Source of the DNA: Candidatus Cloacimonadota bacterium | GTDB taxonomy: Bacteria > Cloacimonadota > Cloacimonadia > JGIOTU-2 | Direction: 5' to 3' | DNA length: 64,000 nucleotides | NCBI GenBank assembly: GCA_016932035.1 | Contig: JAFGDR010000001.1 | Coordinates: 1-64,000, forward strand | Shown: in pieces, positions 23,894 to 24,540 of the stretch | How the letters are laid out: each line of letters opens with the position of its first letter | How positions within the stretch are numbered: position 1 is the stretch's first letter | The notes under the pieces: model-generated | The model's database searches: none | Seen by the model: only the letters and a program-made list of their open reading frames with translations | What the model was told of the DNA's origin: nothing | Position numbers and translations under genes: made by a program

Positions 23894-23947
23894 TTTCGTT
23901 TTTCTTGACACGATAAAGCGATCACGAGATGTAAGTCTTCACTTCGT

Positions 23948-24026
23948 TCAACAGTAACTCAACGGTAGAGCAGATGGCTGTTATCCGCCAGCTCGCGGAC
24001 GGGATTCCAATCCATTATTCAAGCCA
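23948..24026 (+). pseudogene. decayed tRNA-Asn copy
   Basis: This stretch aligns over its length with the intact tRNA-Asn at 24133-24207 and keeps the D-arm (CTCAACGGTAGAG) and the GTT anticodon loop. The acceptor and T-arm pairings are lost, and the part after the anticodon carries TCCGCCAGCTCGCGGA (23984-23999), a palindrome with one mismatch. Its upstream sequence, including TTGACA at 23905, also matches that of the intact copy with an offset of about 185 bases. It is therefore the remnant of a duplicated promoter plus tRNA unit. Confidence 0.75.
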
Positions 24027-24132
24027 TTTCAGCTTACTAGTTTCTTAATTGTTATGTAGAATTTTAAGTGATATATAGGTACTGATTTTCTTGACATCAT
24101 GGAGCGATCCTCGGATGTAAGACTCCACGCGT

Positions 24133-24207
24133 TCCACAGTAGCTCAGCGGTAGAGCAGGTGGCTGTTAACCACTTGGCCGGGGGTTCAAATCCCTCCTGT
24201 GGAGCCA
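24133..24207 (+). tRNA. tRNA-Asn(GUU)
   Basis: A 75-base tRNA with encoded CCA. The acceptor is TCCACAG / CTGTGGA with discriminator G. The D-arm is GCTC/GAGC, and the anticodon stem GGTGG/CCACT with loop CTGTTAA gives GTT. The T-arm is GGGGG-TTCAAAT-CCCTC. It is followed by TTTTTTT at 24208-24214. A decayed copy lies upstream and a 3' partial copy lies downstream beyond a GIY-YIG pseudogene. Confidence 0.95.
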
Positions 24208-24228
24208 TTTTTTTATGAGGGCATTGAG

Positions 24229-24480
24229 ATGAAATATTATACATATGTGTTGTACTCGAAGCAGTACGATAGTATATACATTGGCTATACAAATAACTTA
24301 GAGCGAAGACTCTATTTCCATAACAAAGGCATCAAAGGTTGGACTGCAAAGTATATTCCATGGGAATTGGTTTATCACGAAGAGTTTGATTCAAAATCTG
24401 ATGCAACGAAACGAGAAAGAGAATTGAAGTCTTACCAATGAAGAAAGTTCATCCGAGAAGAAATTCTTTCTCAGAGGTAA
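24229..24480 (+). pseudogene. GIY-YIG nuclease-like gene interrupted by an in-frame TGA
   Basis: The open part (24229-24438, 70 residues) is a small GIY-YIG domain protein of the UPF0213/YhbQ type: 'YTYVLYSKQYDSIYIGYTNNLERRL' start region, then His31, then 'RERELKS'. A TGA at 24439-24441 ends it. The same frame then continues with 12 more codons reading 'RKFIREEILSQR' to a TAA at 24478. That is what the family normally has after 'LKS--G', and a single G-to-T change (GGA to TGA) explains the stop. With readthrough the product would be 83 residues, the usual family length. The gene lies between intact tRNA-Asn and a 3' tRNA-Asn fragment that begins right after its last stop. Confidence 0.8.
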
Positions 24481-24540
24481 AAGCAGGTGTCTGTTATCCG
24501 CCAGCTGGCGGACGAGGTTCAAATCCCTCCCGTAGAGCCA
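24481..24540 (+). pseudogene. 3' fragment of tRNA-Asn
   Basis: Bases 24481-24496 match the tRNA-Asn D-arm end and anticodon loop (AAGCAGGTGTCTGTTA). Bases 24513-24540 match its T-arm, 3' acceptor and CCA (GGTTCAAATCCC, then GAGCCA), followed again by TTTTTT. The 5' third of the tRNA is missing. Between the two matching parts lies the palindrome at 24497-24512. It starts immediately after the GIY-YIG reading frame, so nuclease gene and tRNA fragment look like one unit. Confidence 0.75.
24497..24512. repeat. perfect 16-bp palindrome TCCGCCAGCTGGCGGA
   Basis: TCCGCCAG is followed directly by its own reverse complement CTGGCGGA. The same sequence with one mismatch occurs in the decayed tRNA-Asn at 23984-23999, at the same place relative to the anticodon loop. 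It is absent from the intact tRNA-Asn. It is much more GC-rich than its surroundings. Confidence 0.85.

Follow-up and report, generated by a model that had tools for sequence, protein, structure and literature searches.

A GIY-YIG nuclease gene among tRNA-Asn copies in a Candidatus Cloacimonadota genome, a probable member of a family of very small homing-like elements at tRNA genes

The tRNA-Asn locus and its nuclease gene

The stretch of DNA analysed here, referred to as the window, is the first 64,000 nucleotides of a contig from a Candidatus Cloacimonadota bacterium [GenBank: JAFGDR010000001.1]. It contains three copies of tRNA-Asn, arranged around a small gene for a GIY-YIG endonuclease (Table 1). 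An initial annotation of the sequence had described one intact tRNA, one decayed copy upstream and one 3' copy after the nuclease gene, and this is confirmed, the intact tRNA by ARAGORN and Rfam and the two other copies by repeat analysis. The decayed full-length copy, the position of which is approximate, starts 185 bp 5' of the start of the intact gene. The 5' half repeated in it is 88% identical to that gene, and the sequence on its promoter side has its counterpart at 24086-24128, with a spacing of 186. In the 3' copy, the final 31 bases are 94% identical to the 3' end of the intact tRNA.

Both defective copies carry the palindrome TCCGCCAGCTsGCGGA with zero mismatches, against a chance expectation of 0.02 matches per window. 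As had been annotated, the palindrome begins right after the anticodon loop in the two defective copies only, and the intact tRNA is without it. Hairpin-bearing tRNA copies are also present upstream in three relatives (L015, L019 and L020).

Table 1. Features of the tRNA-Asn locus, in positions of the window
Feature	Position	Strand	Evidence
Duplicate of the promoter-side flank, belonging to the decayed tRNA-Asn copy	23900..23942	+	77% identity to 24086-24128
Decayed full-length tRNA-Asn copy, palindrome replacing tRNA nt 38-47	23948..24026	+	Repeats D1-D3
Palindrome TCCGCCAGCTCGCGGA immediately 3' of the decayed copy's anticodon loop	23984..23999	.	Exact motif match
Intact tRNA-Asn (GUU), the unit's host gene	24133..24207	+	ARAGORN; Rfam RF00005, 70.4 bits
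GIY-YIG endonuclease ORF, 70 aa	24229..24441	+	PF01541, E 1.1e-16; invariant alignment columns
Former C-terminal codons of the nuclease, severed by TGA 24439-24441	24442..24480	+	Sequence; frame open in relative L015
3' portion of tRNA-Asn in displaced position, from D loop to CCA; forms the unit's right end	24470..24540	+	87-94% repeats D1, D4; counterpart in 58/108 related loci
Palindrome TCCGCCAGCTGGCGGA in the displaced copy, replacing tRNA nt 38-47	24497..24512	.	Exact motif match; interval shared with other tRNA-Asn loci and with initiator-Met loci

The match of the nuclease ORF to the GIY-YIG domain lies above the Pfam cut-off. The catalytic residues Y6, Y17, G19, R27, H31 and E63 are present, and Y6, Y17, R27, H31 and E63 are invariant columns in the nuclease alignment (A1). 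This combination of the domain with the conserved Y, Y, R, H and E places the protein in the GIY-YIG superfamily, where it is UPF0213-like. At 66-70 aa the domain leaves little space for DNA binding by a further domain, and it is therefore not evident that the nuclease would be strictly specific for its target. Close pairs of these nucleases mostly have dN/dS of 0.1-0.3, and the genes are under purifying selection.

Where the gene ends and the tRNA copy begins differs in part from what had been annotated. The 3' copy does follow the gene, but its homology to the tRNA begins slightly before the supposed stop codon, around position 24470 and within the D loop. That stop, the TAA at 24478-24480, lies within the D-loop sequence and is the ancestral one; the current ORF has lost its last codons to the TGA. 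In relative L015 the nuclease frame is open and terminates in a TAG that is supplied by the tRNA D loop.

No group I or group II intron was matched around the GIY-YIG gene in the window at the Rfam gathering score. Likewise, the unit at 24208-24540 has neither an ORF nor the room for an integrase, and the GIY-YIG ORF is its sole plausible gene.

Recurrence, empty sites and tandem arrays

Is this arrangement particular to one locus? In the genome from which the window comes, each of the three stand-alone GIY-YIG genes lies 24-131 bp downstream of a tRNA-like 3' end. These ends belong to the tRNA-Asn of the window, a tRNA-Ala (contig C40) and the tmRNA (contig C15). With 42 tRNA and tmRNA genes in 2.44 Mb, the chance of all three nuclease genes being so placed is about 1e-9; a fourth GIY-YIG match, inside a 613-codon frame, was left out of the stand-alone set. 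Within the phylum (125 genomes), the proteins most closely related to that of the window are encoded beside tRNA-Asn, followed by tRNA-Asp, tRNA-Pro and others. In a scan of named genomes the arrangement turns up in Marinimicrobia, Ignavibacteria and Bacteroidota as well, at tRNAs for Gly, Ala, Met, Pro, Lys, Val and Thr. The 13 Firmicutes homologues in the same scan, which serve as an internal control, include none with a nearby tRNA. A survey of 119 Bacteroidia genomes adds Arg, Ser, Glu and Phe tRNAs, and other surveyed genomes add Leu.

Across Cloacimonadota, Marinimicrobia, Ignavibacteria, Bacteroidota and Patescibacteria, the survey yielded 127 GIY-YIG genes that are preceded on the same strand by a tRNA or tmRNA gene at a distance of up to 262 bp (median 53 bp; 15 kinds). 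Its queries were relatives of these proteins, and the fraction found at tRNAs is no estimate for GIY-YIG genes as a whole. A search of related genomes for such genes beside tRNAs had been proposed in the initial annotation, where finding the arrangement at this locus only would have spoken against a mobile unit; instead, the unit recurs at many tRNAs and at tmRNA. The number of GIY-YIG genes per genome varies from 0 to 16. In a tree of 145 of the proteins, weakly resolved because they are short, the identity of the associated tRNA changes 14 times, compared with at least 34 times in 300 shuffles. The nuclease clades follow tRNA identity, and do so across phyla.

The GIY-YIG genes that are not associated with tRNAs fall into clades of their own, including one that interrupts protein genes, and Rfam detects essentially no other RNA genes beside them. 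The interrupting clade consists of inserts of about 280-305 bp with terminal inverted repeats of 10-18 bp, often similar to ACCCCGTTAGA/TCTAACGGGGT (L058, L062, L063, L070, L072, L076, L078, L080, L084, L088, L093, L096 and L188). They lie repeatedly at one conserved site (SNIA^EG) of four-helix-bundle genes, and also in a Xer integrase and other genes, these gene families having been named by eye. The host reading frames continue on both sides, and the clade is possibly a separate new type of mobile element. A third clade away from tRNAs is often found near ATTCCCG...CGGGAAT or related palindromes (L056, L060, L066, L067, L073-L075 and others).

One indication of mobility comes from an orthologous site, the clpX-tRNA-Asn locus. 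About ten species of the family have the unit there, and four genomes (G114, G116, G119 and G123) have the site empty, so that the empty sites at tRNA-Asn sought on the basis of the annotation do exist. Presence/absence polymorphism at a fixed host-gene site, the mark of a free-standing homing element, is thereby found here. When the empty site of G119 is compared with the occupied site of G120, the insert is bounded by a repeat of the tRNA end plus terminator. One terminator base in this comparison fits the import of a working 3' end; the tRNA ends are otherwise too conserved to be informative. The empty sites could also come from loss of the unit, and in genome G110 the locus retains only a unit remnant. 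At the G120 locus (L017), which also has a GIY-YIG unit, tRNA-Asn is split in the anticodon loop by a group I intron at about 805-1441 (Rfam RF00028, 80.3 bits).

Movement between host genes and amplification are both suggested by near-identical units. The tRNA-Ala and tmRNA units of the window's genome have almost the same sequence between the tRNA 3' end and the end of the ORF and diverge outside this segment, which is how units that have moved between the two genes would appear. In genome G225 a tRNA-Met is followed by ten GIY-YIG/tRNA-end units of 457 bp, nine of them identical, and a tRNA-Asn by four full units and one partial unit of 379 bp (L280, L281; G225:C9). From their sequences, the units amplify in tandem to as many as ten copies. 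Carriage by phages or plasmids was considered and set aside, there being three distant phage matches and no plasmid match.

Displaced tRNA copies, hairpins and dispersed palindromes

Among the 108 loci with enough sequence, 58 have a displaced 3' copy of the same tRNA after the nuclease gene, and no clear copy is present in the other 50. The displaced copy is truncated, comes together with its flanking sequence and forms a direct repeat with the intact gene. When each tRNA was compared with the locus of another tRNA, none of the 108 mispaired controls gave such a copy. In these 58 loci, as at 24133-24540 of the window, the nuclease gene lies between the 3' end of a working tRNA gene and a displaced one that is putatively native. 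A mirror type also exists, in which a hairpin-bearing 5' part of the tRNA is followed by the nuclease and then by the intact tRNA (L269, Phe; L274, Asn; L215, Asp; and L198, Tyr, in a Levyibacteriota genome).

The palindrome can be placed on the tRNA in 63 loci, in most of which a hairpin replaces one of three exact intervals. These are nt 27-43, the whole anticodon arm, in tRNA-Ala, Arg, Lys, Met, Pro, Thr and Val; nt 38-47 in tRNA-Asn and initiator-type Met; and nt 50-57 in tRNA-Asp and Gly. The interval is constant for each tRNA across genera and phyla, despite differing palindrome sequences. Within displaced copies the sequence of the palindromes varies and complementarity is kept, the outer six pairs being set by the search criterion. 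In 74 of 114 loci a GC-rich palindrome lies no more than 160 nt from the end of the domain, compared with 9 of 105 windows further away (about 9%).

The palindromes are also dispersed. Five of the seven palindrome sites in the window's genome are away from GIY-YIG and tRNA genes; the off-unit sites include RNase P RNA, the coding gene of a secreted protein and a position directly after an endonuclease ORF that was assigned by eye to a DUF559-like family. Off-unit palindromes were recorded at 1501-1516 of each of three loci of this genome (L003, L004 and L006). A role for the palindrome as a signal specific to the unit, by which tRNA-Asn would be targeted, had been part of the initial annotation and is rejected on these grounds; what stands of the proposed tie is the strong enrichment in displaced tRNA copies, at exact positions. 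Relatives have hundreds of similar dispersed palindromes, TCCCGA...TCGGGA reaching 338 copies in one of them, and in most genomes of families that do not have these units such palindromes are near the control level. Genome G014, without matching GIY-YIG genes, has 108 TCCCGA...TCGGGA palindromes, nearly all of those listed being TCCCGAACACTTTGCTCGGGA.

Two sources of the palindrome load were examined and rejected. The number of GIY-YIG genes is weakly related to it within families (rho 0.60 in family f1; 0.23, not significant, in f12), and the number of Y1 transposases correlates with it about as well in f1. The palindromes are not the REPs of RAYTs either, as 16 Y1 loci of relatives carry other hairpins, and the window's genome has no match to the Y1 (HUH) transposase family PF01797. 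The Y1 transposase genes of relatives (L320-L334) are flanked by hairpins of their own, for example GCGAGAATATAAATATTCTCGC and CCCAGCCGTTCACGGCTGGG.

It might be argued that the palindromes are independent repeats that gather in non-functional or loop-tolerant sequence, through neutral decay and without bearing on the mechanism. Such independence, which would be compatible with a mobile unit, fits the dispersal of the palindromes through the genome, RNase P RNA and a coding gene included, and their hundreds of copies in relatives. Against it are the exact arm intervals that are replaced, each constant for its tRNA across genera and phyla while palindrome sequences differ, the enrichment close to the domain, and the dissimilarity to the hairpins flanking the RAYT-type Y1 transposases of relatives. 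We regard it as rather unlikely.

A probable homing-like element and its relation to known systems

Taken together, the locus in the window probably belongs to a widespread family of very small, homing-like mobile elements at tRNA genes, of which it would be a slightly decayed example. The family appears to be made up of units of about 300-460 bp, whose only gene encodes a GIY-YIG endonuclease of 70-100 aa. That a mobile, homing-like unit combines such a gene with a tRNA end had been suggested in the initial annotation, and its recurrence, the direct repeats of the tRNA end and the polymorphic orthologous site all favour this.

By analogy with the mORFs and SegB discussed below, we infer that the nuclease would cut an unoccupied tRNA gene in or near the anticodon arm, and that repair from an occupied copy would bring in the nuclease gene together with a fresh tRNA end. 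The tRNA would thereby be regenerated, with the old end shifted to the far side of the nuclease gene. The hairpin swap may delete the recognition site in the displaced copy and so protect the occupied allele, and recombination between tRNA-end repeats could generate the tandem arrays. Self-protection is not fully explained in this way because the intact tRNA of the occupied allele still has the proposed target. A broader proposal, offered only tentatively, is that these are minimal selfish elements of bacterial tRNA and tmRNA genes in which each nuclease lineage would be specific for one tRNA, the host gene would be regenerated and the displaced copy would be disabled by the arm-for-hairpin exchange, with nuclease and dispersed hairpins forming one system that would also seed palindromes genome-wide.

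Alternatively, the nuclease could be a domesticated repair or RNA-processing enzyme that is co-transcribed from tRNA promoters, the hairpin-bearing tRNA copy regulating or processing its mRNA. The position of the gene on the strand of the tRNA at a short distance, the purifying selection and the maintained complementarity of the hairpins would all suit a host function. This is nevertheless improbable, given the patchy occupancy of one orthologous site, the range of 0 to 16 copies per genome, the jump between tRNA-Ala and tmRNA, and the mirror-type units upstream of the tRNA. The 3' ends of tRNA genes are hot spots of integration, and direct repeats of tRNA ends are a hallmark of integrase islands. 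That such islands duplicated the tRNA ends and left the GIY-YIG genes behind, or carried them as cargo, is in keeping with those repeats and with the decay of some units, yet it is very improbable in view of the lack of an integrase in the window unit, the size of only about 300-460 bp, nuclease clades that track tRNA identity across phyla, tandem arrays of the nuclease unit alone and a hairpin swap at fixed positions.

Among the closest known parallels to the homing-like reading are the mORFs of fungal mitochondria (Allomyces atp6; Glomus atp6, atp9, cox2 and nad3), in which an endonuclease gene imports a substitute 3' end of the host gene and the native end is displaced downstream; the endonuclease is of the GIY-YIG type in Glomus atp9 and of the LAGLIDADG type in the others (PMC3630166). 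The tRNA units likewise pair a homing-type nuclease gene with a putative substitute gene end and a displaced end that may be the native one. They differ in occupying tRNA and tmRNA genes of bacterial chromosomes, in the small nuclease of about 70-100 aa, in the hairpin that stands for an arm in the displaced copy, in the tandem arrays and in the mirror type, which displaces the 5' part. The other is SegB of phages T4 and T6, a free-standing, tRNA-associated GIY-YIG homing endonuclease; it introduces breaks in tRNA-containing DNA and promotes tandem amplification by recombination (PMC13096335). Both systems have a GIY-YIG nuclease adjoining tRNA genes and tandem amplification, and cleavage of tRNA genes by the units would be a further likeness. 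SegB, however, acts in phages, the proteins of the tRNA units match the UPF0213 structures 1ZG2 and 1YWL, and the passages covered on SegB describe no regenerated tRNA accompanied by a hairpin-bearing copy in displaced position.

Islands and ICEs with tyrosine integrases share with the units insertion in a tRNA gene, a direct repeat of the tRNA end and the retention of tRNA function, but the units have no integrase, are a few hundred bp long and contain the nuclease as their only gene. REP/RAYT systems resemble them in linking small GC-rich palindromes to a small nuclease gene. In that case the nuclease fold differs, RAYT-type loci in the same family have other hairpins, and the window's genome has the palindromes without a Y1 match. 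A literature search, from which most subscription papers were missing, found no description of tRNA-linked GIY-YIG units in bacteria.

If this interpretation is correct, a class of homing-like elements that is common across Bacteroidota and related phyla, and that has apparently not been described, would reside at tRNA genes. The origin of many stand-alone GIY-YIG genes, and of their tRNA-derived C-termini, would be explained, and a very small, possibly tRNA-specific nuclease family would be added to those known. The system bears on how a selfish gene lives in an essential RNA gene, and on how cells obtain exact exchanges of an arm for a hairpin in tRNA copies.
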